Shown here piece after piece: positions 26,496-57,738 of a stretch of DNA of 64,000 nucleotides. The stretch's first letter is position 1, and each line of letters begins with the position of its first letter. The DNA lies in NCBI GenBank assembly GCA_010365215.1, contig JAAFGT010000002.1, positions 1 to 64,000 on the forward strand, in the 5' to 3' direction. The notes under the pieces were generated by a model. The model searched no databases. It was not told the origin of the DNA and was given only the letters and a program-made list of their open reading frames with translations. A program made the translations under genes and the position numbers. This stretch comes from Acidipila sp. (GTDB lineage: Bacteria; Acidobacteriota; Terriglobia; Acidiferrales; UBA7541).

Positions 26496-26557
26496 TCCAA
26501 ACCACCGCTGCAGCTCGTTCTGGTGTGGCCGTGCGCGATTCCAAAAGGACATAGGTC

Positions 26558-27034: not shown

Positions 27035-27284
27035 ATCAATTCACGATGGCCTTGTCTCGCGACGCCTTTTCCGTTCTGGCTGATGCCAGTCGCCGTCCAC
27101 TATCCCCTCGCTTCATTGCTCGATCAAGTTAATCTGGCTCCCACGGGTTTCGCAAAAAACCCCGTGTATACTGAGCTGTGAGCGTGATCCTGAATGCGTA
27201 CTGCCGCCCCATGGGCGTACGGCTCGGTTGGACACGGCGCAGGGCGCGCGCGAAAATGTGATGGTCTGAAGGTTACGTCGCTTT

Positions 27285-31266: not shown

Positions 31267-31605
31267 TCCGCTTACTTCTCCCAAGGGCCTGTTAAGCGTT
31301 TCCGAGACCATCGGCGGCGGGCGTGTGTCCGGCGTTTTGGTGCCGGGCTGGTGGTTTTCCGCCATCCGCGCTACTCTCCAGCCAGTATAAAATCTCAAAA
31401 AGTTGGCAAATGATCGCGGTGTCGATCCGCCGGCACTTTATCAGAGCCAAAGGCGCGTCGCTGGCTGAGAAATCTGACCGAAGGGCGCTGTGAAAGTGAA
31501 AGGTCGAAGCGACCACGTATTCCACGAAAATGCTGAAGCGGTCTAGGCCGGATTACGCAGCACGCTCTACGGACTCAAGAATCAGTAGACCCGCTTAATC
31601 GCGAT
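31267..31605. other. Gap between the precursor and the export operon
   Basis: These 339 bases carry no frame that looks like protein on either strand. I see no strong terminator or repeat. A promoter for the cNMP-domain/NHLM export genes may be here, but no boxes stand out. Confidence 0.3.
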
Positions 31606-32184: not shown

Positions 32185-32219
32185 TTTAACAGTGTCTTGA
32201 ACACATCTTGCGACTAGCC

Positions 32220-33536
32220 ATGGCTGCCCCCCGCCAACAACTTTTTCGCCCCGAAGCACTTGAACGGTACTCCTCGCCAGACAATCTCGACCAGCTCATG
32301 CGGGTGGTAAGCGCTAAGGACTGGGTTCCCTTGGCGGTGATTGCCGGACTGTTCATCGCATTTTCGACCTGGTGTGTTTTTGGTTCCTTGCCCACGACCG
32401 TAACCGCCCGGGGTGTGCTGCTCCGGCCACGTAAATTGGTACAGGTTCAGGTCCTGGGTGGCGGGCGACTTGAGTCGCTCAGTGCGCGCGTGGGTGACTC
32501 AGTTCATACGGGGCAACTGATCGCCCGTGTGGATCAGTCCGAGCTCCACCGGAAAATCGAAGATGACCGGCAATTTCTGAACACGCTGCTGATGCAGGAG
32601 CGTCTGAAAACATCTACGCAGAATGTTCAAGTGAACCTGCAAACTCAGCAGGACCGGCTGGAGAGAAAGTCTCTCGAAGCGCAGCGGGTAAGTCTTCAAC
32701 ATGGCCTGGATGATGCGGTAGCCCTGGATCCCATGCTCAAGCGTCGCCTCGAGAGCCTGCGAAAGCTGAAGGAGTCAGGGCTGATTGCGGAAGCGTCGCA
32801 GGAATATATCCAGGGCGAACTCAGCTACCGCGACAATAATGCGAAGCTTTCGGAGTTTAAAGCCAAACTCGAGCAGATCGACAGCCAGTTGAAGCAGCTG
32901 GAGACGCGCTTCAGCGCACTCGGCAGGGAAAATCTTGAATCCTCCACAACGCGCCAAAACCAGATTAGCGATCTGCGCTCGCGGATTGCCATGAGCGAAC
33001 TACAGCTTTCCAAGAGCGGCGATATCGTCAGCGACTATAGCGGCCAGGTGTCAGAAATATTCGCGACGGCTGGACAAGTGCTCCCCGCCGGAGGGCGCCT
33101 GCTCTCCCTGGACGTTGAAGGCCGGGCAACGCCGCCGATCAGCCTTACGTATTTCCCCATCAAAGACGGGAAAAAAATTCAACCGGGTATGGATGTGCAA
33201 GTGACTCCCGACACAGTTCAGCGCCAGCGATTCGGCGGCATCGTAGGCAAAGTCATTTCTGTCACGACACTGCCGGTAACGCGCGAGGGCGCGAACAACA
33301 CCATCGGAAATGCCGACCTGGTACAGGGCATCATGGGTGAAGGCGCGTTTATTGAAGTCACCGCGCAGCTCGAGCAGGATGGGTCGACCTACAGCGGCTA
33401 TCGCTGGTCTTCTTCAAGAGGGCCGCAACTCAAGATCACTTCCGGGCTTACAACGGTTTCCCGCGTCACCGTCGAACGCCGTGCGCCTATCACTTATGTT
33501 TTCCCGATCTTGAGAGAGGCCATCGGTGCCTACTGA
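32220..33536 (+). CDS. NHLP bacteriocin system secretion protein (HlyD-family membrane fusion protein)
   Basis: About 438 residues: a short cytosolic N-terminus (LFRPEALERYSSPDNLDQLM), one transmembrane helix (VPLAVIAGLFIAFSTWCVFG), a lipoyl-like half (VLGGRLESLSARVGDSVHTGQLIARV with intervening Gly), a long coiled coil (about 120-270) and a beta-barrel part. This is the periplasmic adaptor of the NHLM export system that links the ABC transporter to the outer membrane. The start is taken at the ATG 32220 (TTG at 32208 is possible). It overlaps the next gene by 11 bases if that starts at GTG 33526. Confidence 0.9.
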   Translation: MAAPRQQLFRPEALERYSSPDNLDQLMRVVSAKDWVPLAVIAGLFIAFSTWCVFGSLPTTVTARGVLLRPRKLVQVQVLGGGRLESLSARVGDSVHTGQLIARVDQSELHRKIEDDRQFLNTLLMQERLKTSTQNVQVNLQTQQDRLERKSLEAQRVSLQHGLDDAVALDPMLKRRLESLRKLKESGLIAEASQEYIQGELSYRDNNAKLSEFKAKLEQIDSQLKQLETRFSALGRENLESSTTRQNQISDLRSRIAMSELQLSKSGDIVSDYSGQVSEIFATAGQVLPAGGRLLSLDVEGRATPPISLTYFPIKDGKKIQPGMDVQVTPDTVQRQRFGGIVGKVISVTTLPVTREGANNTIGNADLVQGIMGEGAFIEVTAQLEQDGSTYSGYRWSSSRGPQLKITSGLTTVSRVTVERRAPITYVFPILREAIGAY

Positions 33537-35736
33537 GGCAATGCCCGGGCCAGTGGCGCTTCCCACAGGGCGTGTTCGCACTCCCACAATTTTACAAATG
33601 GAAGCCGTCGAGTGCGGAGCTGCGGCGTTGGCCATTATCCTTCATCACTACGGCCGGCTGGTCCCCTTGGCGCAACTTCGCAAGGATTGTGGGGTGTCAC
33701 GCGATGGCTCGAAGGCCTCCAACATCGTAATCGCCGCGCACGCTTACGGCCTTCAATGCAAGGGCTTTCGAAAAGAGATCGCCGACCTCAAAGACGTAAA
33801 ATATCCCTACATTATTTTTTGGAACTTCAACCATTTTTTGGTGGTGGAGGGGTGCCGCAAAGGAATGGTCTATCTGAACGATCCCGCCAGCGGTCCGCGC
33901 CAGGTGACGCTGGAGGAATTCGATGAAGCCTACACGGGTGTGGTGCTGGCGATGGAACCGGGTCCGGAATTTACTCGGGCCGGCAGCAAACCCAGCGTTC
34001 TAGCGAGCCTAGGCGGTCGGCTGCGGAACTCGATGGGTGCGGTCGCGCTATGCGCCTTCGCCGGGCTATTGCTGGTGATTCCGGGCCTTCTCGCCGCCGC
34101 ATTGATCGAACTTTTCATTGACAAAGTGCTGGTGCAGCAGTTTCAAGACTGGGCCCGGCCGATTATCATCGGCATGTTGCTGACCACCCTGCTTCGAGGA
34201 TATCTCACCGCGTTGCAGGCAGGCATGCTGCGACGATTGGATATTAAGCTTGCCGTGGCCATGTCTAGCCGTTTCGTGTGGCACCTGCTCCACCTGCCCG
34301 CCTCCTATTATGCGCAGCGTTATAGCGGCGAAATCAGCGATCGAATCTATCTGAATGACAAAGTGGCCCGGGTTCTTTCGAGCCGTTTGGCGACGACGAT
34401 CATCGATGTGGTGATGATGATCTTTTATCTTTTTGTGATGATTCAATTTGACGCTGTACTTACCGCGATCGGCGTATCTTTCGCGCTGTTGAATTTTCTC
34501 CTGCTGCGCTGGATTGCGCGTGAGCGCCTGGACAGCAATTACCGCCTGGCTCACTACGGCGGAAAGGCCGCGGGTGTCGCCATCTCGGGGCTGCAAAGCA
34601 TCCGCACGATCAAGGCCAGCGCCCTAGAATCCGATTTCTTCGAACGCTGGGCGGGACACTTTGCCAAACTGATAAATGCAAAACAAAAACTTGGGCTAAC
34701 GAATCAATATTTCAACGTGCTCCCTCCTTTTCTGACGGGCCTCATGACTCTCTTGATTCTGGTTACGGGTGGCCTGAGAGTCATGAATGGGATGTTGACG
34801 ATAGGCCAGCTAGTGGCCTTCCAGTCGCTCATGCTGAGTTTCCTTCTTCCGGTTAACAACCTTGTGGCATTGGGCTCGGAGTTGCAGGAACTCGAGGGCG
34901 ACCTTAGCCGGCTGGATGATGTTCTACGCAATCCGACCGACTCCAACTTCGTGCCAAAGGGCGACGGGCCCCAAGGTTATGAGGCAGCGGGAATGCAACC
35001 TGCCCGCCTCTCCGGCCATCTCGAGTTGCGCGGGGTGTCCTTCGGGTATAACCCGCTTACCCCGCCGTTGATTGAAAATCTGTCCCTTACCGTACGGCCC
35101 GGCCAGCGCGTAGCATTTGTAGGCGCCAGCGGCTCGGGAAAATCGACCCTGGCGAAGCTGGTGGCCGGCCTGTACGAACCGACGGAAGGAGAGATTCTAT
35201 TCGACGGTACACCGCGTTCGAACCTTTCCCGTGAATTAATCACCGGCTCGCTCGGGATGATCGAGCAGGACATCCTGATGTTCGGAGGCAGCGTAAAAGA
35301 TAATCTGACTCTGTGGGATTCCTCAGCGCCTGAGGAGAGAATCTTGTCGGCGTGCCAGGATGCTCTGATACATCAGGTAATCTCCGCGCTGCCGGACGGG
35401 TACCGCGGACAATTGCTGGAAAACGCGGCCAATATGAGCGGGGGCCAGCGACAACGTCTGGAGATAGCTCGCGCCCTGGTCAACAATCCCTCAATCCTGG
35501 TGATGGATGAAGCCACCAGTGCGCTCGATGCAGAGACTGAAAACTTGATCGACCAGAACATCCGCCGCCGCGACTGTACGTGCGTCATCGTAGCCCACCG
35601 CTTGAGCACGATTCGTGACTGCGACGAGATTATCGTTTTGAATTTTGGAAAGGTCGTCCAACGAGGCAGTCACGAAGAATTGATCAAACAGGATGGCGAG
35701 TATTTGCGCTTGCTCTCCTATGAAGGCATGACCTGA
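33526..35736 (+). CDS. NHLM-family ABC exporter 1 with C39 leader peptidase
   Basis: The 736-residue protein has an N-terminal C39 peptidase (catalytic Cys in QMEAVECGAAAL near residue 30, His in FNHFLVVEG), six membrane helices and an ATPase. The ATPase reads GASGSGKST for Walker A, NMSGGQRQRLEIARAL for the signature, VMDEATSALD for Walker B and VAHRLST for the H-loop. All sites are canonical. It should cut Gly-Gly leaders, such as that of the precursor at 31045, while exporting the peptide. It works with the HlyD adaptor upstream and a partner ABC subunit downstream, in one operon. An ATG at 33541 is an alternative to the GTG start. Confidence 0.93.
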   Translation: MPTEAMPGPVALPTGRVRTPTILQMEAVECGAAALAIILHHYGRLVPLAQLRKDCGVSRDGSKASNIVIAAHAYGLQCKGFRKEIADLKDVKYPYIIFWNFNHFLVVEGCRKGMVYLNDPASGPRQVTLEEFDEAYTGVVLAMEPGPEFTRAGSKPSVLASLGGRLRNSMGAVALCAFAGLLLVIPGLLAAALIELFIDKVLVQQFQDWARPIIIGMLLTTLLRGYLTALQAGMLRRLDIKLAVAMSSRFVWHLLHLPASYYAQRYSGEISDRIYLNDKVARVLSSRLATTIIDVVMMIFYLFVMIQFDAVLTAIGVSFALLNFLLLRWIARERLDSNYRLAHYGGKAAGVAISGLQSIRTIKASALESDFFERWAGHFAKLINAKQKLGLTNQYFNVLPPFLTGLMTLLILVTGGLRVMNGMLTIGQLVAFQSLMLSFLLPVNNLVALGSELQELEGDLSRLDDVLRNPTDSNFVPKGDGPQGYEAAGMQPARLSGHLELRGVSFGYNPLTPPLIENLSLTVRPGQRVAFVGASGSGKSTLAKLVAGLYEPTEGEILFDGTPRSNLSRELITGSLGMIEQDILMFGGSVKDNLTLWDSSAPEERILSACQDALIHQVISALPDGYRGQLLENAANMSGGQRQRLEIARALVNNPSILVMDEATSALDAETENLIDQNIRRRDCTCVIVAHRLSTIRDCDEIIVLNFGKVVQRGSHEELIKQDGEYLRLLSYEGMT

Positions 35737-35768
35737 TGTGCGCGCAGGCAAGTACAGGCTAAAAGCCT

Positions 35769-38618
35769 TTGAGTCCATTTACTGAACAACGCGTTGGGGG
35801 TCCAAGCCAGCTCTTACCGGGTAAGGGCCCCTTTTCATTGGGCAGCCGGGATGTCGCCTGGGTGGTGGATCACGGCTCGGCAGCGGTGTCCGTTGTCGAT
35901 TTTGAAAATGGCGAGCCGAAGGGAGTGCGGCGTTATCTCTTTACCGTTAAGAGCGGAGACGTCCTCCTGGGGATGTCAGGAGCTCGGGGTAGCAGACATA
36001 AAGAACTGATTGCCGTGGCCATTGAATCCGCGCGAGTGTCACCGATCGCTGCCGACGAAGTTGCCGTAACAGCCTGGGTGTCTAGTCTCTCTTCGGCTCT
36101 CGCCGGACTTGCTCCCCCGGACGGCGCTGCGCCTTTGCCCGTTGATCGTCAGATCTATATCGAGGCGGGTGATTCCGCCTTTGCCAACGACACAGTAGCG
36201 TGGCTGCGCACCATTAAAGGCAGCATCCGACTGCTTGGATATCCTGAAGGCAAAATTGACCAACCAGGCGTGCCCTTTCTGCTCGGCCCTGGCATGTGGA
36301 TCGAGGCGGACGAGCCCACCGAGCTTGAACGCGTTGCAGGAGGGGAAAAAGCGCTCGAGTCACTAGCAGTGTTGGAGCCTATCATTTTCCGGGCCTTTGA
36401 CGATCTCGATCACAGACGAGAAGAGGAAAACCGCTCACACTTACGCCGGCGCCAGGAGTTGGACCGTCGCCTGGCAGCGCAAACTGAGCGGGACCTCGCC
36501 TCCCTCACGAGCGGCGAAGTTACACGAATTGAATTTTCGTCCGACCCACCCCTGCTCGCCGCCGCACGAACGGTTGGACAAGCCGAAGGCATTGTAATCA
36601 AGCCAGCAAGCTCGGACAGTTACCAACGCGACCCCCTGGAAGCTATCGCCATCGCCTCGGCGGTACGCACGCGCAGAGTTTTGCTGGCGGCGCGGTGGTG
36701 GCAAGGCGAAAACGGCTCTCTGCTTGCCTACCAGGGGGAACAAAATCGCCCGGTGGCGCTTATCCAGGTACGTTATGGGCGGAGCCACGGGTACGACTTG
36801 TTCGATCCGGCCGCAGGTAGCGTCACTCCGGTTGACGCCTCGGTTGCTGCCGCGCTTCACCCGGTGGCCTATTCCTTTTACCGCCCGCTCGGTCCGGCGC
36901 TCGGCACTTGGGACCTCATCAAGCTCAGTACCGAATTTCATAGAAAAGACATTGCTACGATTGTCTTGTGCGGCATTGCGGCCAGCCTGTTGGGTATGGC
37001 CGCCCCCGAGGCCAGCTCCATCCTCTTTTCGCAGGCCATCCCGGACGGAGATCGCAGCCTTTTATGGCAGGTGGCAATTGGTATGGGAGTGGCCCTGCTG
37101 GGAGGAATGCTCTTCGAAGTTACCCAGTCTGTGTCCATGCTGCGGGTCCAAACAGCTGCGGGAATTTTACTGCAAACGGGAATGTGGGACCGGCTGCTGA
37201 AGCTCAGTCCGGCATTTTTCCGCAAGTTCACGATTGGCGATTTGCGCGCGCGGGTCGAAGGTGTGAGCACGATTCAACACCTCCTGACGCTGGAAGGATT
37301 CCGCACCATCGTGGCGGGAGTGTTTTCCTCTTTATATCTTCTACTGATGCTTTATTACAGTATACCGCTGGGGCTAATCGCGTTGGCCGCCGGTATAGTG
37401 GTCATAGGCGGTACGGCTTTTGCGGCGCACGCGCTGACGGAGCTGGAAGGGAGCTTGCAAGCGATGGAAGGCGATCTCTCTGGCCTGACGATCCAGTTAA
37501 TCAACGCCGTGCCCAAACTCCGCGTCGCTGGGGCCGAGCGGAGAGCTTATGCCTTTTGGGGAAAGTCTTACACCAGCAAGCAGAAAGTTATGGCGCGAAT
37601 TCGGGCCGTGCTCGATCGCATGCGCGTCCTGAACGTTTCGGTGCCTCTCCTGGCTATTGGGTTTTCCTTTTGGTTTGCGTTGAGTTCGTTGTCCGACGCG
37701 TCCGGCAGCCTGCCACTCGGAACTTTTATCGCTTTTAACTTGGCGCTAGGCGTTTTCATGTCCGCGGTGACCAACTTGAGCGGCACCCTCATCGGGCTGG
37801 TACCCATTCTCAGCATTTGGAGGAGGACAAGAAGTATTCTCGACGCTACACCGGACGTAGAGGACGGCCAAGCCTACCCCGGACGTCTGCAAGGACGCAT
37901 TGTGTTCGATCGCGTCAGCTTTCGCTACCGTAAGGACGGCCCACTGACGCTCGAGGACATCAACATTTCTGTGCAACCCGGCGAGTGCGTTGCTCTGGTC
38001 GGCCCTTCGGGCTCAGGCAAGTCAACGATTGTCAATCTCATCCTCCGCTTCGAGACACCGTCTGCCGGCGCGATCTATGTCGATGGCCAGAATCTCGCAG
38101 GCATCGATATCTCCGCCGTCCGGAGGCAGATGGGAGTGGTCAGTCAAGACAGCAAGCTGATGTCCGAATCTATTTTTGAGAACATCGTCTGCGGAGGCCT
38201 CAGCACAATGGAAGATGCGTGGGAAGCGGCCCGCGCCGCAGGGTTGGCGGAGGACATTGAGCAAATGCCCATGGGCATGCACACAATCGTTTCGGAAGGC
38301 GGCTCCAACCTTTCCGGCGGCCAGCGCCAAAGAATAATGATCGCGCGAGCCCTGGTGATGAAAGCCGCCGTGCTGATTTTCGACGAAGCCACCAGCGCGC
38401 TGGACAATCAAACGCAGAATATCGTGACGGAGAGTTTAAACCAGCTAAAGGTGACCCGCGTGGTTGTGGCGCACCGCCTGAGCACCATCCGAAATGCAGA
38501 TAAAATCTATGTGATCGAGAACGGCCGTGTAGTCCAGCAGGGCAAGTACGAACAATTGATGGACGAGCCAGGCTTATTTGCCCAGCTTATGAAGCGGCAG
38601 ATGGTTGCGCCCGAATAG
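35769..38618 (+). CDS. NHLM-family ABC exporter subunit 2 (permease/ATPase with large N-terminal domain)
   Basis: The 949 residues comprise about 400 of an N-terminal region typical of the second NHLM ABC subunit, including a cytosolic part (ARVSPIAADEVAVTAW, coiled segment DHRREEENRSHLRRRQELDRRL). Six membrane helices and a canonical ATPase follow (GPSGSGKSTIVNL, NLSGGQRQRIMIARAL, IFDEATSALD, VAHRLSTIRN). No C39 domain is present. It pairs with the peptidase-bearing subunit upstream. The start is a TTG 32 bases after that gene; the ribosome binding site is weak. Confidence 0.9.
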   Translation: MSPFTEQRVGGPSQLLPGKGPFSLGSRDVAWVVDHGSAAVSVVDFENGEPKGVRRYLFTVKSGDVLLGMSGARGSRHKELIAVAIESARVSPIAADEVAVTAWVSSLSSALAGLAPPDGAAPLPVDRQIYIEAGDSAFANDTVAWLRTIKGSIRLLGYPEGKIDQPGVPFLLGPGMWIEADEPTELERVAGGEKALESLAVLEPIIFRAFDDLDHRREEENRSHLRRRQELDRRLAAQTERDLASLTSGEVTRIEFSSDPPLLAAARTVGQAEGIVIKPASSDSYQRDPLEAIAIASAVRTRRVLLAARWWQGENGSLLAYQGEQNRPVALIQVRYGRSHGYDLFDPAAGSVTPVDASVAAALHPVAYSFYRPLGPALGTWDLIKLSTEFHRKDIATIVLCGIAASLLGMAAPEASSILFSQAIPDGDRSLLWQVAIGMGVALLGGMLFEVTQSVSMLRVQTAAGILLQTGMWDRLLKLSPAFFRKFTIGDLRARVEGVSTIQHLLTLEGFRTIVAGVFSSLYLLLMLYYSIPLGLIALAAGIVVIGGTAFAAHALTELEGSLQAMEGDLSGLTIQLINAVPKLRVAGAERRAYAFWGKSYTSKQKVMARIRAVLDRMRVLNVSVPLLAIGFSFWFALSSLSDASGSLPLGTFIAFNLALGVFMSAVTNLSGTLIGLVPILSIWRRTRSILDATPDVEDGQAYPGRLQGRIVFDRVSFRYRKDGPLTLEDINISVQPGECVALVGPSGSGKSTIVNLILRFETPSAGAIYVDGQNLAGIDISAVRRQMGVVSQDSKLMSESIFENIVCGGLSTMEDAWEAARAAGLAEDIEQMPMGMHTIVSEGGSNLSGGQRQRIMIARALVMKAAVLIFDEATSALDNQTQNIVTESLNQLKVTRVVVAHRLSTIRNADKIYVIENGRVVQQGKYEQLMDEPGLFAQLMKRQMVAPE

Positions 38619-38625
38619 ATCTGAG

Positions 38626-39978
38626 TCACAGCATGTTTCTTTTTTGTAGATCATGGTACGTACGGTCGAGGCCATTCTTAATCAGCCCAATCATCTCGTC
38701 GATTTCGGCAAAGCTGATTACCAGGGGTGGGGCGATCATCATCCGGCTTCCAGCGGCTTGGACCACGATACCTTCATCGAAGCAGATGTCGCGGCACAGC
38801 TTTCCTACCTTGCTATCCACATCGAATAACTGACCGCTCTGCGCGTTCTTAACCAGAACCAACGCCGCAGTCATGCCGCAGGTTTCTATCGCTCCCACGA
38901 GAGGGTGATCCTTTAGTTCGAGAAAGCGCTTTCGCAAAAAAGGTCCGGACTCCTCGGCGACGCGGCGAATAAGGCCGTCGCGCTGCATCAGGCGGATGTT
39001 GGCGATCGCTACGGCGCACGCGACGGGATGTCCTGAACAGGAAAAGCCGTGGTCAAACACACCTCCACGGTCAATCAACGATTCGGCAACGCGATCGCTC
39101 ACGCCAACGCCGCCCAAGGGAATATACCCGGAGGTTACTCCCTTACCGAAAGTAATCAGGTCGGGCCGGAATCCGAAGTGCCCACACCCGAACCATGTTC
39201 CGAGTCGTCCAAAGCCGCAAACAACCTCATCCGAAACCAGGAGGACGTCGTATTTCTCACAGATACGCTGGATCTCTGGCCAGTAGCTTGCTGGAGGGAC
39301 GATGAAGCCTCCCCCGCCCTGGACGGGTTCGCCAATAAACGCCGCAACCTTGTCCGGACCAGACTTGAGAATCTGCTGCTCGAGCCACAAGGCCGCCCGG
39401 ATGCCGAACAGCTCCGGTGCGAGGGCGTTTCCGTAGCAAAAGTAATACGGTTGGCCGATCAGCTCGGTGTGGGTCACCGGCAAGTCGCGCCGCTGCCGCA
39501 CCTCTTCCGTCCCACCGAGAGCGGCCGCGAAGACCGTGCTCCCGTGGATCGAATTCTGGCAGGAGATGATGATCTTCTTTTGCGGCTGCCCGGCCAACTC
39601 CCAGTAGCGGCGCACCATGCGTAAAACGGTGTCGGTCGCTTCGGAGCCGGAGTTAGTAAAGAAAAAATGGTTAATTGCGGGCGGGGTGACCTCGCAGAGC
39701 AGGTCCGCGAGATTGACTGCGGGCACAACAGAACTACCGGAAAAATTGCTGTAAAACGACAACTCCTCTAATTGCGTTCTCGCGGCATCGATCAGTTCCT
39801 GCCGGCCGTATCCGACGTTAACGCAGGCAACGCCTGACATCGCATCCAAGAGCTTGCGGCCCTTTGCGTCCCAGATGTAAATACCCTTGCCACGAGTGAT
39901 TACCCGGGCGTCTTTTTGGCTTAGCGCCTTCTCGTCGGTGAACGGGTGCAAGAAGTGGGACCGGTCGGGGCACATCAT
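38626..39978 (-). CDS. Class III (omega) PLP aminotransferase in the NHLP locus
   Basis: The 450-residue enzyme shows MSGVACVNVGYGRQEL, FFFTNSGSEATDTVLRM, SIHGSTVFAAALGG, SDEVVCGFGRLGTWFG and the PLP lysine in LITFGKGVTSGYIPLGG. This is the subgroup of omega-aminotransferases that use polyamines, beta-alanine or lysine-like amines with pyruvate as usual acceptor. It lies directly downstream of three NHLP precursor genes on the same strand (190-base gap) and converges with the exporter operon on the other strand. A polyamine role is possible. Its position makes a role in modifying the lysine-ended precursor cores an attractive inference. Confidence 0.85.
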   Translation of the reverse strand: MMCPDRSHFLHPFTDEKALSQKDARVITRGKGIYIWDAKGRKLLDAMSGVACVNVGYGRQELIDAARTQLEELSFYSNFSGSSVVPAVNLADLLCEVTPPAINHFFFTNSGSEATDTVLRMVRRYWELAGQPQKKIIISCQNSIHGSTVFAAALGGTEEVRQRRDLPVTHTELIGQPYYFCYGNALAPELFGIRAALWLEQQILKSGPDKVAAFIGEPVQGGGGFIVPPASYWPEIQRICEKYDVLLVSDEVVCGFGRLGTWFGCGHFGFRPDLITFGKGVTSGYIPLGGVGVSDRVAESLIDRGGVFDHGFSCSGHPVACAVAIANIRLMQRDGLIRRVAEESGPFLRKRFLELKDHPLVGAIETCGMTAALVLVKNAQSGQLFDVDSKVGKLCRDICFDEGIVVQAAGSRMMIAPPLVISFAEIDEMIGLIKNGLDRTYHDLQKRNML

Positions 39979-40168
39979 GGGGCGGGTATCTTGCGTACGC
40001 CCGTCGTTACAAACGAAGCGTTATCGGACGATTTGTGTCGCTCAGCAGGTTGGAATGATTGCACGTCTTAGAGCCGCTTTGCGGCTTCCCGGGCACAGGG
40101 ATAAAAATTGACGCTTCGCCTACCAGTTCGCGCGGACACGGGATCTGTAGATTTGGTGAAACAGGTCC

Positions 40169-40450
40169 CTACTTTACGGGCAACATCCCTGCCACGGCCT
40201 TACCGCCCGCTACCTTTGCTAGTTCATCCTTCAATTCGCCGTCGGCGGATAGGGCCGGTATTACGAAATGCCGCGTCGTGGGAGTGTCCTCGATGAACTT
40301 ATAATTCACGCCTTCAGGCACCTTAATCCCCAAACTGGCTAACGCGTCTTTCGAGTTCGTTACAAGCTTGGCCTTAAATCCGGGGTCAGACCATGCCTTC
40401 GAAATTACGACCTTGAGGGCATCGCTGCTGAACTCTTGTCGATCGCTCAT
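40169..40450 (-). CDS. NHLP (nitrile hydratase leader) RiPP precursor 1
   Basis: A 93-residue precursor with the nitrile-hydratase-alpha-like leader (ALKVVISKAWSDPGFKAKLV, ALASLGIKVPEG, YKFIEDTPTTRHFVIP), ending ELAKVAGG. The predicted core is only KAVAGMLPVK: no Ser, Thr or Cys, and Lys at both ends. It is the last of three tandem copies, nearly identical to copy 2 in the leader. The start follows AGGAGAAT. It belongs to a locus with an ABC exporter pair upstream and an aminotransferase downstream. Confidence 0.9.
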   Translation of the reverse strand: MSDRQEFSSDALKVVISKAWSDPGFKAKLVTNSKDALASLGIKVPEGVNYKFIEDTPTTRHFVIPALSADGELKDELAKVAGGKAVAGMLPVK

Positions 40451-40496
40451 ATTATTCTCCTATCCGTTGCGGGGTAGATTCAACTATGCAAATAGG

Positions 40497-40778
40497 TTAC
40501 TTATAGAAGATCGCCCCTGCCACGGCCTTTCCGCCCGCCACCTTGGCCAGTTCGTCTTTCAACTCGCCATCTGCGGACATTGCCGGTAATACAAAGTGGC
40601 GCGTAGTGGGGGTGTCCTCAACGAACTTATAATTCACGCCTTCAGGCACCTTAATTCCCAAACCGGCTAACGCGTCTTTCGAGTTCGTTACAAGCTTGGC
40701 CTTAAATCCGGGATCCGACCATGCCTTCGAAATTACGACCTTGAGGGCATCACTGCTGAACTCTTGCCGATCGCTCAT
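40497..40778 (-). CDS. NHLP (nitrile hydratase leader) RiPP precursor 2
   Basis: A 93-residue copy that differs from precursor 1 at a handful of leader positions, with core KAVAGAIFYK after the VAGG. The true start is the ATG at 40778, where AAGGAGAAT lies just upstream; a longer open frame to 40880 runs into the intergenic spacer and copy 3 and is not real. The core again lacks Ser, Thr and Cys. Confidence 0.9.
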   Translation of the reverse strand: MSDRQEFSSDALKVVISKAWSDPGFKAKLVTNSKDALAGLGIKVPEGVNYKFVEDTPTTRHFVLPAMSADGELKDELAKVAGGKAVAGAIFYK

Positions 40779-40824
40779 ATTATTCTCCTTATGGTTGCGG
40801 GGTAGATTCAAAACTGCGAATAGG

Positions 40825-41103
40825 TCACTTATAGAAGGCCCCTGCCACGGCCTTACCGCCCGCCACCTTAGCCAGTTCATCTTTCAACTCGCCGTCCGCG
40901 GACATTGCCGGTATTACGAAGTGCCGAGTAGTGGGAGTATCCTCGATAAACTTATAGGTCACGTCTTCGGGCAGCTTAATTCCCAAAGTGGCCAGTGCTT
41001 CCTTGGCGTTCGTCACAAGCTTGGCCTTAAATCCGGGATCCGACCATGCCTTAGACAATATGACCTTCAGGTCGTCATTTCTGATTTCTTGTTGATCGTT
41101 CAT
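40825..41103 (-). CDS. NHLP (nitrile hydratase leader) RiPP precursor 3
   Basis: The first and most diverged copy, 92 residues: leader MNDQQEIRNDDLKVILSKAW onward, ALATLGIKLPED, YKFIEDTPTTRHFVIP, ending VAGG, and core KAVAGAFYK (nine residues). The ATG at 41103 follows AAGGAGA by a normal distance; an upstream ATG at 41139 in the same frame has no such site. It lies 237 bases downstream of the second exporter pair on the same strand. Confidence 0.9.
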   Translation of the reverse strand: MNDQQEIRNDDLKVILSKAWSDPGFKAKLVTNAKEALATLGIKLPEDVTYKFIEDTPTTRHFVIPAMSADGELKDELAKVAGGKAVAGAFYK

Positions 41104-41340
41104 GGAAAAATCTCCTTCACTTTTCAGGGCATCGTTCAAGTGAGGCGCCCGAAGATACAGGGTGGTTGGTAAATAATTCTAGGCCACTATCCGGAGGATT
41201 TCAACGCAAATCGAAAATACAACAGCCATAAACAGCCGCGGCGATTGAGATCGTAACTCTACGGTCAACTTATCGTTCCCATTATCATGCCGGCTGACCT
41301 GCGCACCGCGGGAGGGCGGGTAAAACGGGGCAGGACGCCG

Positions 41341-43308
41341 TCATGGAAGCATTCGACCGTGCTCGAGCCTGATGACCCGGGTTGCGAGCGCCATGGTAGA
41401 TGGGCGGTGCGTGCAGATGACAACCATTGTCCCGGCCGCTTGAAGATCAGCGATCAAGCCCGACTGCACCGTTTCGTCGAGATTCGAAAGCGCTTCGTCG
41501 AAAACCAGAATCTCCGGCCGGCGCACGAGCGCCCGCGCGATCAGCAGTTGGTTGACCATCGCCGAAGGCACCGTCGCTCGAGCCACCAGAGTTTGCATTC
41601 CCATCGGAAGGCTGGCGATCCTGTCCGAAATGCGCGCGAGGCGCGCCGCTGCCCATGCCTGCTCTTCGGGAATGGGAGTCGTTCCCAAAATCGTTCTGCG
41701 TATCGTGGCAACCTCAACGTGCTGATCCTGAAAAACCGCACCGACGCGGCGCCGATAGTCCGCGACGTCTGCAACGCGAAGGTCGAATCCATTCACCCGG
41801 ATTTTGCCGTGAGTTGGGTGTTCGAGACCCGTCAGCAGTCGCACGAGCGTCGTTTTGCCGCTGCCTGAGGGTCCGACCACGGCCACACAATCTCCTTTAC
41901 GCAATTCAAAACTGACATCCTCGAGGCTCGGCTGCGCTGCACCCGAATAGACAAAGCTCGCCCTTTCGAAGACCACGGTTGCGATTTCCCCTAATCTAGA
42001 CTGTTGGGGAGGCATTGCAGGTTCTGGTTCCATTAGCGAAGACTGAGCCGGCGTGCGCTTGTTAGCTTCGCGTAGGCCAGCCCATGCTGAGGCCACACGG
42101 CAGACCTCCGAGCCGAGCCAAAGACCGGAGAAAAGAATCACGGAGAGGCTCGAGAACGTCAAATTTCTTCCCGCTCCCGCAGCCAAGCTGATCACAATAG
42201 CAAGAACGACGAAAATCGGCCCGAAGCGCCGCAGCGATTCGTCACTGAGGCGCAGCACTTCAGAATGCGCCCTAGCGGTCAACTCCTCATTCGCAGCGAC
42301 ACGCCCCACATCGAGCGCCCAGTCAAGAGCGCCCAGAGAACGCAACCCAGGCAGGTGGGAGGCAAGCAGATTTCGCGTTCGCAGGATTCTGGGAGCCTGG
42401 GTGTTCTCAAACCGCACGCACGTTTCAAACGCACGCGTCAAGGCGTACTGCGCCCCGAAGAGGATTATCAGCGTCGCGCCGGCAAGCGCCGTCAGGCCGG
42501 GCGACACCAAGACGAGGACCAAAAAGGCGGCGCAGGCTCCCGGGACGGCAAGTCGAAGGACAAACTTCTGGGCGTCAGCATCATTGCCAGCGGTGATTGC
42601 GTCGTCAATTCTCGCCGCAAAGTCGGTCGAGGGAAGTACGCGGAAGCGCGCAAACGGAAAACCGAGCACGCGATTCCAAATAAAGGCGTGGCGCAAAATG
42701 TTTGCTTGCACTCGCCACCGCAATCCCGCGATAACGGCGATATATTCTGCCGTGGCAACTGCAGCAGCAAGCGCCATCCAAACGAACATCCCTGCGCGGA
42801 GCAGCGCAAAATCATAACTTGGAAAATACTTCCGGGCAAAAAGCGGGCCGAGCACCATAAAACTTACGAGAAAAACAGCCACCGTGGCATATCCGATCTG
42901 AAACAATGCGTCCGCGTGGGATCCACTGACGAATCGGGAGTAGCGGCGATCCTTGGGGGCGGGACCAGGGTAAGGCATGAAAGCCTCGTACTTCAATGTC
43001 GCCGCCATTGCGGCATCGACAACAACTGAATCGCTGCGGCTGGATGGTTCGAACGCGCGGTATTCGCGCCGGCGCCCTCGAATGAGAACCACTGGCATTC
43101 CGTCCGCTCGCCGGAATGCGAGGATTGGTCCGTTATCGAATAGCCACCAGCGGCGCTTGCGCAGGCGCACAAGGCGTAACCGAATACTAAAATCGGCAGC
43201 CGCATCGCGCCAATCCACGATGGTCCTACCCGCCCGGGCCGACTCCACCGACGCGTGAACCATGTTGAGCAACGCCGTCCCTAGACCGGTCACCGGGTCT
43301 GAAGTCAC
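41341..43308 (-). CDS. Second NHLM-type ABC exporter subunit 2, with degenerate signature motif
   Basis: About 655 residues, the counterpart of the 949-residue subunit but lacking roughly 250 N-terminal residues. A soluble N-domain (WWLFDNGPILAF, PVVLIRGRRREYRAFEP) is followed by about six helices and an ATPase. Walker A (GPSGSGKTTLV), Q-loop (VFQDQ), Walker B (LVFDEALSNLD) and H-loop (CTHRPST) are intact. The signature LSGGQ is replaced by VPSAMVNQ just before LLIARAL. The GTG at 43308 overlaps the upstream stop as GTGA and is preferred to the ATG at 43362, which would give a 58-base overlap. Confidence 0.85.
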   Translation of the reverse strand: MTSDPVTGLGTALLNMVHASVESARAGRTIVDWRDAAADFSIRLRLVRLRKRRWWLFDNGPILAFRRADGMPVVLIRGRRREYRAFEPSSRSDSVVVDAAMAATLKYEAFMPYPGPAPKDRRYSRFVSGSHADALFQIGYATVAVFLVSFMVLGPLFARKYFPSYDFALLRAGMFVWMALAAAVATAEYIAVIAGLRWRVQANILRHAFIWNRVLGFPFARFRVLPSTDFAARIDDAITAGNDADAQKFVLRLAVPGACAAFLVLVLVSPGLTALAGATLIILFGAQYALTRAFETCVRFENTQAPRILRTRNLLASHLPGLRSLGALDWALDVGRVAANEELTARAHSEVLRLSDESLRRFGPIFVVLAIVISLAAGAGRNLTFSSLSVILFSGLWLGSEVCRVASAWAGLREANKRTPAQSSLMEPEPAMPPQQSRLGEIATVVFERASFVYSGAAQPSLEDVSFELRKGDCVAVVGPSGSGKTTLVRLLTGLEHPTHGKIRVNGFDLRVADVADYRRRVGAVFQDQHVEVATIRRTILGTTPIPEEQAWAAARLARISDRIASLPMGMQTLVARATVPSAMVNQLLIARALVRRPEILVFDEALSNLDETVQSGLIADLQAAGTMVVICTHRPSTMALATRVIRLEHGRMLP

Positions 43309-45410
43309 TGGAGTGATCCTGCCGATGGCACGTAGTCGTCGAGATTTACGACGGCTTCGCATTGCGCGAGGCTTTCGGCGCGGCGGGAAATCAGCACTAG
43401 AGTAATGCCGCGGCGTCTGATCGCACTACGAATGACCATTTCGAGCTGCCAGTCGACACCGTCAAGCGCTTCATCGATCACCAGGACACTGGGTGACCGG
43501 GCGAGGGCGCGCGCGATTTCCAGGCGTCGCTGCTGTCCTCCGCTGAGTTCAAGCCCGGCTTGATCCAAGTACAGGTCTAATCCGCCGCGAGCGTCCAATT
43601 CGACGTCAAGACCAACTTCCGCGAGCACTTCCAACAACTGGGCGTCCGCTAAGCCAAGTCCCAGGAGAAGATTTTCGCGCACTGTAGCCGCGATAATCGG
43701 CCCTCGCCCTGCTACCAGCAGAGCTCCGGCTTGCGCGGGCGCTGAGCAGCTTGTGCCGTCAAACAGAATGTCTCCCTCGGTGGGTTCCAGGAATCCGCAA
43801 ATAAGCTGCGACAGCGCCGATTTTCCGGATAACGATTGCCCGGTTACGCCTATTTGCCCGCCGGCTGGAACGTCCAAGCTAAACTTGGAAAACACGAACG
43901 GCTGGTCTGGGGACGGCCGCCACGCCAGGTGATCGACCGAAACCCGTACACCCTTCCGGACGATGCTGGAAGTCTCACTGTGCAATGCAGGTTGCGCGTC
44001 CTCGAGATCGGCAAGCTGGTGTATGGCTCCGCGAAAGTCTCGAAGCCCATCAAGCCTCGCTAAACGTTCCAGTGGAATACCCACCACAAGGGACAAGACC
44101 AACAATTCACCTACCGAGCCTATAGAAAGTCGCGCTCGTTCGAGGGCAAGTATGCCGGCAATTAAGGTGGCACCCAACCGTGCGAACCTGACGACGAGGC
44201 GAACAGCGTCGAGACGGAGACGCGAGACTGTGGCTCGGATGGCGGCATTTGAGGCACGCGCGTGAAGTCCAGCAAGACGCGAAAAAAGTTCCGATTCGCC
44301 TCCAGACACCAGATGGGGCTCCATCCGTCCGAGCGTGTCGGGGTCGAAGCCAACGCACGCCAAAGGTCGTGCCGCTTGGCCAGCAACTACGCCACCGCGC
44401 CGCCGCCACACCGCACTGACCACCGCGACTTCGAGCGCAGCGATGCCAACGATAAGACTCCCGATCCAAGGATCGATCCAGAACGCATAGACACAAGGCG
44501 CAACCAGTCCCGAAAAGTCGAGTCCAGCGGCGAGAGCGTGTCCCTTCCGAACGATTTCACCGGGGGCGCTGAGCTTAGCGACGATTTGGGACGAAAGCCG
44601 ATTGCTGAAGAAGCGCTCCGGTAATCGACTGAGCCGATCCAGACCCTTGAGTGACGCTTCCGTCGCAAGGCCGAAGGCTGCTGCCACTGCGGCCCGATCC
44701 CGCATCCATCCGGCCCCGAAGGCCACGCCGGCAGCAAGGCAGAGCGCGACCAGATCCGGCCAGACCACAGATCCCCCGCTGACACGATCGATCAGCCGGC
44801 CGGCAAAAAATGCAAATGCCAAAATGGCTGCAACTACTACCCAGGAAAATGCTGCTGCCCCCACTAACTGCGGGACTACCGTATCAATTCTGTCCTTGAA
44901 CCATCGCCTCAAGGAGAACGAGCATCCCTGTCTGGTCAATATCGGACCCGGAGAAAGGGTCAAAACAAGGCCCGTGAAATCGTCGGCGAAATCTTCAATG
45001 GGAATCCGGGCTGGACCAACGGCTGGGTCGTTGACTTGCACTTCGTCTGCGGTGATGTCTTCGACCACCACAAAGTGGATGAAACGGCAGTAGGCGATCA
45101 TCGGAAATCCCACCGTCTGCATGTCCTCCATTTCTCTACGAAAAAGACGTGCGACGAATCCGTAGTGTTCTGCAAGCTGCATGAGCATCAGCGCACTCAC
45201 CCCCAACCGGGTCGACCCTGCCAAAAGCCTCAACTCTTCTAGGGTTACGTGCGTGCCTTGATATCCGAGCAAGATGGCGAGCGCTGCCAGCCCACATTCC
45301 GTGGTCTCGGCCTGCAGAACCAAGGGGGTCCGAACGGTACTTACGCACTTGCTAGCTCGGGCAAACCCCGACTCCATAGCATTAGCGGTGCGTTCAAACA
45401 TCGTTACCAT
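43305..45410 (-). CDS. Second NHLM-type C39-peptidase ABC exporter, with degenerate H-loop
   Basis: The 701-residue protein has a C39 peptidase with catalytic Cys (QAETTECGLAALAI) and His (RFIHFVVVED), membrane helices and an ATPase. Walker A (GQSLSGKSALS), signature (ELSGGQQRRLEIARAL) and Walker B (VIDEALDGVD) are kept. The H-loop His is Arg (LISRRAESLA) and the Q-loop Gln appears lost (LLVAGRGPI). With the next gene it should form a heterodimer with one working and one dead ATP site. Its ATG follows immediately after the stop of a 65-codon gene (TAG-ATG). It is probably the exporter for the three NHLP peptides downstream. Confidence 0.88.
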   Translation of the reverse strand: MVTMFERTANAMESGFARASKCVSTVRTPLVLQAETTECGLAALAILLGYQGTHVTLEELRLLAGSTRLGVSALMLMQLAEHYGFVARLFRREMEDMQTVGFPMIAYCRFIHFVVVEDITADEVQVNDPAVGPARIPIEDFADDFTGLVLTLSPGPILTRQGCSFSLRRWFKDRIDTVVPQLVGAAAFSWVVVAAILAFAFFAGRLIDRVSGGSVVWPDLVALCLAAGVAFGAGWMRDRAAVAAAFGLATEASLKGLDRLSRLPERFFSNRLSSQIVAKLSAPGEIVRKGHALAAGLDFSGLVAPCVYAFWIDPWIGSLIVGIAALEVAVVSAVWRRRGGVVAGQAARPLACVGFDPDTLGRMEPHLVSGGESELFSRLAGLHARASNAAIRATVSRLRLDAVRLVVRFARLGATLIAGILALERARLSIGSVGELLVLSLVVGIPLERLARLDGLRDFRGAIHQLADLEDAQPALHSETSSIVRKGVRVSVDHLAWRPSPDQPFVFSKFSLDVPAGGQIGVTGQSLSGKSALSQLICGFLEPTEGDILFDGTSCSAPAQAGALLVAGRGPIIAATVRENLLLGLGLADAQLLEVLAEVGLDVELDARGGLDLYLDQAGLELSGGQQRRLEIARALARSPSVLVIDEALDGVDWQLEMVIRSAIRRRGITLVLISRRAESLAQCEAVVNLDDYVPSAGSLQ

Positions 45411-45608
45411 CTAGGCGCTCATCCAGATCACGATCAACGCGAAACAGAGAAGCAACGCTAGGGCTAGCAGGCCCGCGCGATTGTCAGCCTTCGGCAGCGT
45501 TAACAACTCGTCGAGCGGTTCGGCCGAAGCCAGACGATCCCAGGCGACACGCCGGAATAATGATCCCGCGTCTGGAGTGGGCATCCGTTTCGGCACGACC
45601 TTCGTCAT
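45411..45608 (-). CDS. Truncated HlyD-like N-terminal stump (cytosolic tail plus one TM helix)
   Basis: The 65-residue product resembles only the first 50 or so residues of the NHLM HlyD adaptor encoded at 32220. Compare SLFRRVAWDRLASAEPLDEL with LFRPEALERYSSPDNLDQLM; each is followed by one hydrophobic helix (LLALALLLCFALIVIWM here). It then stops, with no coiled coil or barrel part anywhere nearby. The stop TAG is immediately followed by the ATG of the C39 exporter, which suggests translational coupling. It may be a decayed adaptor or a functional mini-subunit. Confidence 0.6.
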   Translation of the reverse strand: MTKVVPKRMPTPDAGSLFRRVAWDRLASAEPLDELLTLPKADNRAGLLALALLLCFALIVIWMSA

Positions 45609-46332
45609 GATGCAAGTTGCCGTGGGGCAGAATCCTGGATTGCGACCCCGGTGTTTGAGCCGCCACCAAGAATCTGGCCTCCTGACCGTACAAGCGCAAA
45701 TAAGAAGTCGCTGGCGTCAGTTCTCTCGCGTACGATCGTGGTCATTTATCGGCTCCCACTGCGAACCATCGTTTGATAACGCGTTGACCTTTTTTCAAGT
45801 AATGAGCTTTTGCGGGCTTGGGCATGTCAATAGCAGGATTTCAAGAGTTACCTTTCAATTGCAAAGCACATTGTGACATGTTGGATCCATGAATATTCCT
45901 GCTACTTCCGGGCGGCTCTAGTCCGGATAATTGTTGCATGCTTCTTGAATCTTGGTGAACTTAACACCCTTCTTCGCGAGCGATGCCAGGTGCTTCAGCT
46001 CTCAGACAGAACGTTCTCGGCGTGAATGAAGAACATAGAAGAGCTTCGCCCCTGTTGGCGTCGTGATCTCCCAGACATAGCGCCAGAACTCGCGCTGGAG
46101 GAGTCCACCGCGGCTTTTCTGGCCAGCTTCTGCAACTCTCGCTGGCAAAACACCCGGAACTTTGGTCCTAAACTATCGGCCTACTCGGCGCCCTACGAAC
46201 GTCCCATCGACTTCGTACGGCACGGCCCATACCCTGATCATACGATCCGAAAAAGCGCGTTCATCAGGGCCGGTAAAGGAGTTGGCACGCCCCCGGAGGT
46301 AGATGCGCTGTGGCTGGCGGGGAGCAGGAAAC
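45609..46332. other. Divergent intergenic region between NHLP locus and peptide importer
   Basis: About 720 bases between two divergent operons. A plus-strand open frame (46026-46385) is not convincing, since it overlaps the importer start in another phase. A TTGACA on the minus strand (45830-45825) may be a -35 for the NHLP operon, but its -10 is poor. A decayed minus-strand fragment lies at about 45925-46125. Confidence 0.4.
45925..46125 (-). pseudogene. Possible decayed gene fragment
   Basis: One minus-strand frame reads LQREFWRYVWEITTPTGAKL then FYVLHSRRERSV, a TGA, then ELKHLASLAKKGVKFTKIQE and a further stop. The residue make-up looks like real protein interrupted by a stop. I recognise no family. 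Confidence 0.35.
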
Positions 46333-47175
46333 ATGGAAAAGCTGCTTCAAGTGCGGGACCTGACCATCGACTACTGCTCGGCTGAGCTGCGCACGCATCG
46401 CGCGGTGGCCGGCGCCAGTTTCGATATCGCCCCCGGGGAAGTTGTGGGTTTAATGGGGGAATCAGGGTGTGGAAAGACCAGTATCGCGCTGGCTCTGCTC
46501 AATGTGTTGCCCAAGGATCGGACTCGCGTCACCGGTTCGATATTGTTTCGCGGGCAGGAACTGCTCACCATGCGGGAAACTTCGCTGCGAAAAATTCGCG
46601 GCGCTGCGCTTTCCATCATTTTTCAAGAGCCGGAAGCTGCGCTGAGCCCGGTGATGCGCGTGGGAAATCAGATTGCCGAAGTGATTCACGCGCACCGGAG
46701 ATGGAGCTGGAAACGCTGCCGGGACGAGGCCGCATCGGCGATCGCGGCGGTCGGGCTTCCTGCTACGGAGCGAATCTACCTCGCCTATCCGCACCAATTG
46801 AGCGGCGGGCAGCGGCAGCGCATCGTCCTCGCACAAGCGCTGGCGTGCGAGCCGGCGCTGGTGATCGCGGACGAACCCACGGCTTCGCTCGACGCGCAAA
46901 GCCAGGCCGATTTTCTGGTTCTGCTGCGCAATTTGAAGAGTGAGTCTAATGTTTCGGTGCTGCTCATCAGCCACTCGCCGGAAGTGCAAGCCAGCCTGGC
47001 TGATCGTCTGCTGGTGATGCAGTCGGGAAAGATTGCCGTAGACACAGCCTTCGCAAATCTTAATAGGCATCCCTCTCACGCCGGCACAAGAACCGTGCTG
47101 CATCCGAATCGTCGACCAGAAGTCGAGCGCGTTGCCAAGTCTGCCTTGGTCAGCCAGGGATCGTCCGTCCGATGA
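46333..47175 (+). CDS. Oligopeptide ABC transporter ATP-binding protein (DppD/OppD type)
   Basis: About 280 residues starting MEKLLQVRDLTIDYC. It has GLMGESGCGKTSIALALL for Walker A, SIIFQEPEAALSPVMRVG for the Q-loop in the peptide-importer form, QLSGGQRQRIVLAQAL for the signature and VIADEPTASLD for Walker B. It powers uptake of di/oligopeptides. AGGAAAC precedes the ATG at 46333; the frame's earlier ATG (46303) lacks a site. It is the first of five importer genes linked by four-base overlaps. Confidence 0.88.
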   Translation: MEKLLQVRDLTIDYCSAELRTHRAVAGASFDIAPGEVVGLMGESGCGKTSIALALLNVLPKDRTRVTGSILFRGQELLTMRETSLRKIRGAALSIIFQEPEAALSPVMRVGNQIAEVIHAHRRWSWKRCRDEAASAIAAVGLPATERIYLAYPHQLSGGQRQRIVLAQALACEPALVIADEPTASLDAQSQADFLVLLRNLKSESNVSVLLISHSPEVQASLADRLLVMQSGKIAVDTAFANLNRHPSHAGTRTVLHPNRRPEVERVAKSALVSQGSSVR

Positions 47176-48029
47176 GTATTGGCTCAAATCGAGCGGGTGG
47201 CACTTTGCCACCAACGTTGATGTGCGTCCGCAATTTGAGCAAGCAATATTCCCAGAGGCGTCCCCTGAATGGTGAAAAATTCATCATTCACGCTCTGAAA
47301 AATGTGAATTTGACGATTGCGCGCGGAGCTACCCTGGCCATCATTGGTGAGTCTGGCGCCGGGAAATCGACTCTAGCCCGCTGCCTGGCCCTGCTGGAAG
47401 AACCCACGCAGGGCGAAATCCATTTCGAGGGGAGCAACCTGCTGACTCTCGGACGGAAGAACCTGATTCCGATTCGCCGCAGGATTCAGCTTATCTTTCA
47501 AGATCCGGCTTCGGCACTGAATCCTCGCTTCACCGCAGAAGAGATCATCGCCGAGCCGATGTTGGTGCAAGGCCTTTCCACAAAGACTCAGCGGAGGCAA
47601 AGAGTTTCTGAATTATTCGACGAGGTCGGATTGCCCGCGCAGTGCGGGCAGAAGCGGCCCAGTGAGTTTAGCGGCGGGCAGCGCCAGCGCCTGGCCATCG
47701 CCAGAGCTCTGGCTCTCCGGCCAGCGCTGCTGATTCTTGATGAAGCGCTTTCACATCTCGATGTGGCCAATCAGCAACTAATTGTACAGCTTCTGGCGGA
47801 TCTTCAGTCGGCGCACTCGCTCACCTATCTGCACATCTCGCACGATGTGCGGATGGTTTCCAAGTTTGCAGATGAAATTGCCGTGATGCATGATGGAGCG
47901 ATCGTCGAGCTGCGGCCCGCCACGCAACTGCGCGCACACCCAGCTCACTTCCCTACCGGAGAACTCGTTAGGGCGACGCCCGCGCTGACAAGCGTCAGGC
48001 AGGGGCGCTTCCCCAGGCAGGCGCCATGA
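47172..48029 (+). CDS. Oligopeptide ABC transporter ATP-binding protein (DppF/OppF type)
   Basis: The 285-residue second ATPase: VRNLSKQYSQRRPL, AIIGESGAGKSTLARCLALLEEPT, LIFQDPASALNPRFTAEEII, EFSGGQRQRLAIARAL, LILDEALSHLD and HISHDVRMVSKFAD. It pairs with the ATPase upstream. It overlaps its neighbours by four bases on both sides (ATGA). Confidence 0.88.
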   Translation: MSIGSNRAGGTLPPTLMCVRNLSKQYSQRRPLNGEKFIIHALKNVNLTIARGATLAIIGESGAGKSTLARCLALLEEPTQGEIHFEGSNLLTLGRKNLIPIRRRIQLIFQDPASALNPRFTAEEIIAEPMLVQGLSTKTQRRQRVSELFDEVGLPAQCGQKRPSEFSGGQRQRLAIARALALRPALLILDEALSHLDVANQQLIVQLLADLQSAHSLTYLHISHDVRMVSKFADEIAVMHDGAIVELRPATQLRAHPAHFPTGELVRATPALTSVRQGRFPRQAP

Positions 48030-48997
48030 GATATCTCAGCCGAAGACTCCTCCACGCCGTCCTGCTGCTGGGTGCGGTATCTTTTTTTTCATTCGCGTTG
48101 CTGCAAATGGCGCCGGGGGATTTTTTTGACAGTATGCGGCTGAATCCTCAGATTTCCAGCCTCACGGTGAATGATTTCCGCGCGCAATACGGGCTCGACC
48201 GTCCACTGCCGGTGCGCTACGAGCGCTGGTTGGTTTCCGTTTTCAAGGGGCAATTCGGATTGTCGCTCACCTATGGCACTCCCGTAGCTCCACTGCTTTG
48301 GGTGCGCGCGCGCAATACGCTTCTTTTGACGGTCACTGCGACGCTGCTGGCGTGGCTGCTCGCTTTGCCACTGGGAATCTTCAGCGCCGCAAACAAAGGA
48401 ACGTGGTGCGACCGTCTGGGCGGAATGGCAACCTCCACATTGCTCACCGTGCCTGACCTGCTGCTCTTCCTCGGCCTGCTGTTGCTTGCCGTACGCACGG
48501 GATGGTTTCCAACCGGCGGAATGGTTTCGTCAGGGAGCTCTGATCTGAGCCGGTGGGCGCAGGCCAAAGATATTGCCGCCCACCTCTTCCTGCCGGCTCT
48601 GGGTCTGGCGCTGGTTATTCTTCCGCCCCTGGTGCGGCACATTCGCTCGGCAATGATCGAAGTGCTGGACTCGTCCTTTATCCGCAGCGCGCGCGCCCAC
48701 GGAATTCCCACACAGCGAGTGCTTTTTTGCTACGCGCTTCCGGTGGCGGCGAATCCGCTAATTTCGCTGCTGGGTTTTTCGATAGGCTCGATGCTCAGTG
48801 CTTCTGTGCTGGTGGAAGTAGTGCTCAGCTGGCCGGGTCTTGGGCCGCTGCTGGTGGAAGCGATATTGGCCCGCGACACTTACGTGATCGTCGGAATCGC
48901 CATGCTTGGATCGGTATTCCTTGTGGCGGGAAATCTCATCGCTGACTTGCTGTTGTTTGCGAACGATCCGCGAATCCGTGACGGAGTGAACGCGTGA
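48026..48997 (+). CDS. Oligopeptide ABC transporter permease (OppB/DppB type)
   Basis: A 323-residue permease with six predicted helices. It begins MRYLSRRLLHAVLLLGAVSF, has FRAQYGLDRPLPVRYERWL, and the EAA loop SSFIRSARAHGIPTQRVLFC facing the ATPases, then PLISLLGFSIGSMLSASVLVE. It is part of the overlapping importer operon. Confidence 0.88.
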   Translation: MRYLSRRLLHAVLLLGAVSFFSFALLQMAPGDFFDSMRLNPQISSLTVNDFRAQYGLDRPLPVRYERWLVSVFKGQFGLSLTYGTPVAPLLWVRARNTLLLTVTATLLAWLLALPLGIFSAANKGTWCDRLGGMATSTLLTVPDLLLFLGLLLLAVRTGWFPTGGMVSSGSSDLSRWAQAKDIAAHLFLPALGLALVILPPLVRHIRSAMIEVLDSSFIRSARAHGIPTQRVLFCYALPVAANPLISLLGFSIGSMLSASVLVEVVLSWPGLGPLLVEAILARDTYVIVGIAMLGSVFLVAGNLIADLLLFANDPRIRDGVNA

Positions 48998-50025: not shown

Positions 50026-50057
50026 AACCGGCCGAATCTCTGCTAAAAAGTGGCGGT

Positions 50058-57691: not shown

Positions 57692-57738
57692 GCATTTATA
57701 TTGCGAATCATGACCGGCAAAAACACCAGCCCGAAAAC

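Follow-up and report, generated by a model that had tools for sequence, protein, structure and literature searches.

The minus strand of the window, the whole 64,000-nucleotide stretch of DNA that was analyzed, carries a block of genes that are transcribed in the following order: a stub of a membrane-fusion (HlyD) protein (45608-45411), a peptidase-containing ABC subunit (45410-43305), a second ABC subunit (43362-41341), the three tandem NHLP precursors P3, P2 and P1, and a class III transaminase (39978-38626). We tentatively interpret P1-P3 as the precursors for a divergent form of NHLP/NHLM export that is self-contained, with the transaminase as the leading candidate for a tailoring enzyme. 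The dedicated divergent exporter and the altered pocket of the transaminase go beyond the preliminary description of this locus. No radical SAM enzyme, LanM, YcaO, GNAT or methyltransferase was seen in the minus-strand block.

Precursors and their core peptides

P3 (40825..41103), P2 (40497..40778) and P1 (40169..40450), all on the minus strand, encode peptides of 92, 93 and 93 amino acids with the cores KAVAGAFYK, KAVAGAIFYK and KAVAGMLPVK, respectively. The preliminary description had claimed three NHLP precursors with these cores and with intact leaders ending in VAGG, and the profile search bears this out: matches to the NHLP leader model TIGR03793 scored 64.0 (P3), 65.6 (P2) and 64.1 bits (P1), all above the cut-off of 50.9 bits, and stopped exactly at VAGG in all three. 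The relationship of the leaders to the nitrile hydratase alpha subunit is also detected by Pfam. P2 starts at an ATG after a ribosome-binding site (the ATG is preceded by AGGAGAATAAT), the mechanically called ORF being longer than 93 amino acids. Pairwise comparison of the 83-residue leaders of P1-P3 (NG86) gave dN/dS values of 0.045, 0.11 and 0.15; judged by sequence, P1-P3 are real genes whose leaders are under purifying selection. A promoter-like element, TTGAAA-17-TAGAAT, is located 5' of P3 at 41204-41176, and such sites occur in the region at chance level. We infer that the leader is cleaved after VAGG; VAG is repeated within KAVAG, which provides a second possible cleavage site beside it. 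A search of Rfam with positions 26500-46400 gave no match, base composition does not distinguish the island from its surroundings, and the AlphaFold model of P1 (pLDDT 48) was unusable.

The cores are 9-10 residues long, have Lys at both ends and, as described previously, contain Ser, Thr or Cys in none of the three cases. Lanthipeptides and azole-containing peptides (TOMMs) require these residues in the core, so both classes were rejected for P1-P3, and the earlier view that the LanM of the same region cannot form rings in these cores holds. Under assumed residue frequencies, a 29-residue stretch lacks Ser, Thr and Cys with a chance of ~2%, although the fairer figure is ~7%, because KAVAG is common to P1-P3 by descent and is counted as shared; the lack alone is therefore weak evidence. 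Short cores free of these residues are more telling when set beside the remaining NHLP tails with a GG end in this phylum sample, each of which has Cys and/or Ser/Thr and is 14-34 residues long.

Comparison of P1 and P2 revealed differences at 9 of the 12 nucleotides in the four variable core codons, versus 26.5% of the third positions in the leader (P=6e-4), and in P1, P2 and P3 the stop is preceded by the same Lys codon, AAG. A fast-changing middle between the fixed KAVAG and the last Lys suggests the pattern of an NHLP precursor; it is suggestive and no proof, because three paralogs are few. The constancy of the terminal Lys that had been pointed out earlier is confirmed among the three paralogs, and its retention while the neighboring residues vary suggests that Lys matters, though perhaps for activity. 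The KAVAG codons (AAGGCCGTGGCAGGG) are identical at every base in P1-P3, and many third positions in the preceding codons are not the same in P1 and P2; gene conversion or a constraint at the nucleotide level are both possible.

The LanM noted in the preliminary description (27285-30533, plus strand) is irrelevant to these cores, since it belongs to a separate lanthipeptide operon with its own precursor and canonical exporter. This complete plus-strand operon (27285-38618) consists of LanM, a mersacidin-family precursor (31033-31266, plus strand; TIGR03898) with the Cys-rich core VVGYHDSIGTCAASCVCTIVCTVIKK, a CRP-like regulator, HlyD and a canonical NHLM ABC pair.

A divergent exporter pair

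Subunit 1 of the exporter (43305..45410, minus strand) is a divergent NHLM-type peptidase-ABC protein (PF03412, 2.7e-31), and its gene overlaps by 58 nt with that of subunit 2, a divergent NHLM-type ABC protein without the peptidase (41341..43362, minus strand). Both miss the equivalog cut-offs of the NHLM export system, with 350 bits versus 853.3 for subunit 1 (TIGR03796) and 275 bits versus 709.4 for subunit 2 (TIGR03797). Similarly, a full-length HlyD-like fusion protein is absent from the minus-strand block, where similarity searches revealed only a 65-residue ORF (45411..45608, minus strand) that resembles the N-terminus and membrane helix of NHLM membrane-fusion proteins. This stub matches the HlyD of the window with 33% over 42 residues (E 6e-4) and other NHLM HlyD N-termini weakly (about 1e-4); a search for periplasmic HlyD remnants near it found none. 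The sole copy of an NHLM fusion protein above the cut-off in the genome is that of the LanM operon. Because the curated cut-offs are failed and a full fusion protein is absent, we class the exporter as an NHLM variant. The closest relatives of subunit 1 in 396 genomes of the phylum and 299 of the class are at most 33% identical to it, and no match to subunit 2 was found among the other 88 genomes of the family.

In ABC exporters, a composite ATP site is made up of Walker A/B and the Q- and H-loops of one subunit and the signature of the other, and some known heterodimeric exporters have one such site in degenerate form. The Cys/His/Asp triad of the C39 domain of subunit 1 is intact in an alignment with about 40 homologues. 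In motif alignments, LSGGQ is present in subunit 1 and its Q- and H-loop residues are gone; Walker A/B and the Q- and H-loops are present in subunit 2 and its LSGGQ signature is gone. Since both subunits contribute to a composite site, all losses fall into one site and the other is complete. This clustering is consistent with function and does not prove it, because a random draw of three losses produces it about 1/4 of the time.

The transaminase and a proposed mechanism

The class III transaminase (TRANSAMINASE; 38626..39978, minus strand) is of the putrescine/polyamine:pyruvate type and scores 641 bits against NF005682 (omega-amine/polyamine transaminase, cut-off 510 bits). It matches the structurally characterized members of this group (PDB 6gwi, 6hx9 and Cv-omega-TA, 4a6r) strongly and over the full length, and retains the PLP residues K279 and D250. 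Homologues borne on plasmids are ~50% identical, and the nearest one found, in an Aeromonas record, is 52% identical; identity in 90 relatives is at most 39%, and 396 genomes of the phylum contain no other match at 1e-110. Unlike these enzymes, the transaminase of the window has seven altered pocket residues relative to Cv-omega-TA, namely A51/W60, S80/F89, I144/Y153, G222/A231, S313/T321, C314/Y322 and Q407/R416; the canonical pocket with its carboxylate-binding Arg416 is thus not present, Gln407 standing in its place. The pocket positions rest on an alignment to Cv-omega-TA (by PDB sequence match, with 16 homologues) and not on a structural argument, because AlphaFold models were too poor (for the transaminase, run without an alignment, pLDDT 35 and unusable).

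Columns that are invariant in six proteobacterial homologues are kept by the transaminase at 100 of 118 positions overall and at 1 of 7 pocket positions (Fisher p=3.6e-5); when ten homologues define the columns, 0 of 5 pocket positions are kept (p=2e-5). The Fisher estimate is somewhat flattering, because the positions, which we took to be those of the pocket from general knowledge of the omega-TA enzyme, were chosen with the pairwise alignment in view. The literature consulted after that choice describes a salt bridge from Arg416 to the carboxylate of an inhibitor and counts Trp60, Tyr153 and Ala231 among the residues of the hydrophobic pocket; Tyr153 of the Pseudomonas enzyme packs on the PLP ring, and Thr321 is a phosphate-binding residue (PMC3606037). 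The changes could fit a larger, non-carboxylate substrate, or else a loss of activity, which the replacement of the stacking Tyr153 by Ile, most of all, could signal. An opened pocket without the carboxylate-binding Arg would suit an amine borne by a bulky chain, for example the side chain of Lys. The gene lies 190 nt beyond P1; it may have its own promoter, and its product could serve small-molecule metabolism.

The motifs suggest a mechanism in which the leader would dock on the adjoining exporter pair, the C39 domain would cut after VAGG, and the pump, with a canonical and a degenerate ATP site, would export peptides of 9-10 residues with Lys at both ends. As a further step, the downstream transaminase may act on the precursor ahead of export, in which case Lys would become the aldehyde allysine, which could react by condensation with the N-terminus or the second Lys. 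The action of the transaminase on Lys and the cyclisation are, taken jointly, the weakest steps, and we regard them as doubtful. We are equally reserved about the full scheme, a RiPP modification not described before, in which a PLP transaminase would make allysine in an NHLP core, leading to a small ring bounded by Lys that is exported by a one-site pump with a stub fusion protein. Our literature search on allysine in RiPPs found no relevant paper, and the literature searched contained no example of a transaminase that modifies Lys in an NHLP peptide.

Known systems, distribution and competing explanations

NHLP/proteusin precursors (TIGR03793) and the NHLM exporter (TIGR03794/03796/03797) were described by Haft et al. 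(2010; PMC2887384), and LanM-linked NHLPs average 26 residues in the core (PMC2887384). The locus shares with them a nitrile-hydratase-like leader extending to GG, tandem paralogs, a hypervariable core, and an adjacent peptidase-ABC with a second ABC; it differs in its cores of 9-10 residues without Ser, Thr or Cys, its ABC proteins under the cut-offs, one degenerate ATP site and the HlyD stub. The lack of Ser, Thr and Cys had previously been taken to indicate an unrecognised RiPP type. It points to no such class, because NHLP peptides have other known modifications: epimerisation by PoyD-type radical SAM enzymes (PMC8326336) and lipidation of Orn/Lys in selidamides (PMC9505594). An epimerised proteusin was rejected, the radical SAM epimerase TIGR04517 being absent from the genome of the window (best score 12.3 bits versus a cut-off of 325; assembly 97.8% complete). 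Selidamides resemble the locus in their NHLP precursor, peptidase-containing exporter and an amine side chain as the modified group, but their class-defining GNAT acyltransferase was not seen in the minus-strand block (PMC9505594). Daptides similarly have a class III aminotransferase adjoining multiple small precursors and ABC transporters, but use a C-terminal Thr, an oxidative decarboxylase, an RRE protein and a methyltransferase (PMC10036551); they were rejected, as the transaminase scores 246 bits against NF041821 (cut-off 450) and the cores of P1-P3 end in Lys.

The closest parallel to the cores is on plasmid pn1 of Nostoc sp. UHCC 0926 (5595-8800), where NHLP precursors with the short cores ATIGIYGPLQIVKS, AVIGVIGPLQYVKS and FKLVAGSYIVIKD adjoin a PoyD-family epimerase. 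Their leaders are likewise NHLP, and their cores, of 13-14 residues, are hydrophobic, have Lys near the end and lack Cys, so short Cys-free cores are not unique to the genome of the window; in contrast to the window, the neighborhood contains the TIGR04517 epimerase and LanM. The pn1 locus also encodes a 383-residue protein without an NCBIfam match. At least eight tandem NHLP precursors occur on a plasmid of Azospirillum sp. B510 (64-5900), with cores of 28-45 residues that are mostly hydrophobic and mostly end in KW or similar, and a Paenibacillus cellulosilyticus plasmid (3701-5200) carries five NHLP-like ORFs without a GG site and with an aromatic end motif such as VRKYTWV.

Orthologs of the precursors, the exporter and the transaminase were not found in the relatives searched. 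A search for precursor homologues in 150 relatives yielded, with hardly any exceptions, nitrile hydratase or unrelated NHLP-like ORFs; all eleven loci from a profile search of the genome contigs read as nitrile hydratase, and a search of viral contigs gave no match. A second genome with the combination of precursor, exporter and transaminase was not found among those searched. With the transaminase lacking in relatives and the ABC pair alone in its family, the minus-strand genes look like a single accessory island.

Unmodified double-glycine peptides provide a precedent for export without modification, and the precursors and exporter would suffice for it. The C39 pump would then remove the leader and release a linear cationic/hydrophobic peptide of 9-10 residues, and the transaminase, set apart by 190 nt, would be an unrelated passenger. 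The lack of any radical SAM enzyme, LanM, YcaO, GNAT or methyltransferase in the block favors this explanation; nevertheless, the transaminase is on the same strand, is missing from relatives as are the other island genes, and is altered above all in the pocket, and the Lys ends are kept amid changing neighbors (perhaps only for activity), so we consider it rather unlikely. Modification in trans would instead require an enzyme encoded elsewhere. The genome encodes a RiPP radical SAM C-methyltransferase on contig C91 (3931-5961; TIGR03975, 657 bits versus a cut-off of 281.9), next to which no obvious precursor is located, and acylation of Lys/Orn of NHLP peptides is known from selidamides (PMC9505594). 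However, the enzyme is physically unlinked to P1-P3 and a PoyD-type epimerase is absent (best 12 bits versus 325), which makes this route improbable.

Decay would also produce exporter scores far under the family cut-offs and a HlyD stub, and a remnant with a truncated fusion protein could account for the missing ATPase motifs and the lost stacking Tyr of the transaminase. Yet every ORF is open, the leaders are under strong purifying selection, the motif losses fit a single degenerate composite site, the C39 triad and the PLP Lys and Asp are retained, and the changes in the transaminase are concentrated in the pocket; we find decay as improbable as modification in trans. A signaling loop, in which the peptide leaves by the minus-strand pump and returns through an Opp-type oligopeptide importer (ATPases, permeases and peptide-binding protein; 46303-51821) transcribed divergently from the minus-strand block, draws on the adjacency of this operon and on the ECF-like sigma factor that comes after it. 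Ten contigs from the same family preserve all or part of the block that consists of importer, ECF-like sigma factor, CHAT-TPR protein, subtilase and HD-GYP protein (46303-58503). Because family members without the NHLP island share this synteny, the importer block is not specific to the island; it is kept vertically, and the loop was set aside as highly improbable.

If, as in our tentative interpretation, the precursors feed a divergent exporter and the transaminase works on the cores, Lys would be a further residue that RiPP enzymes can convert to a reactive group, and ring-closing chemistry would have no need for Ser, Thr or Cys. The defined cores give precise masses as search targets: the calculated [M+H]+ of the unmodified peptides is 1013.618 for KAVAGMLPVK, 1067.625 for KAVAGAIFYK and 954.541 for KAVAGAFYK, conversion of Lys to allysine would lower the mass by 1.032 Da, and closure of an imine ring would remove another 18.011 Da. 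Even if the transaminase is inactive on the cores, the locus would represent the NHLP export principle cut down to short hypervariable peptides and a dedicated pump with one degenerate site.
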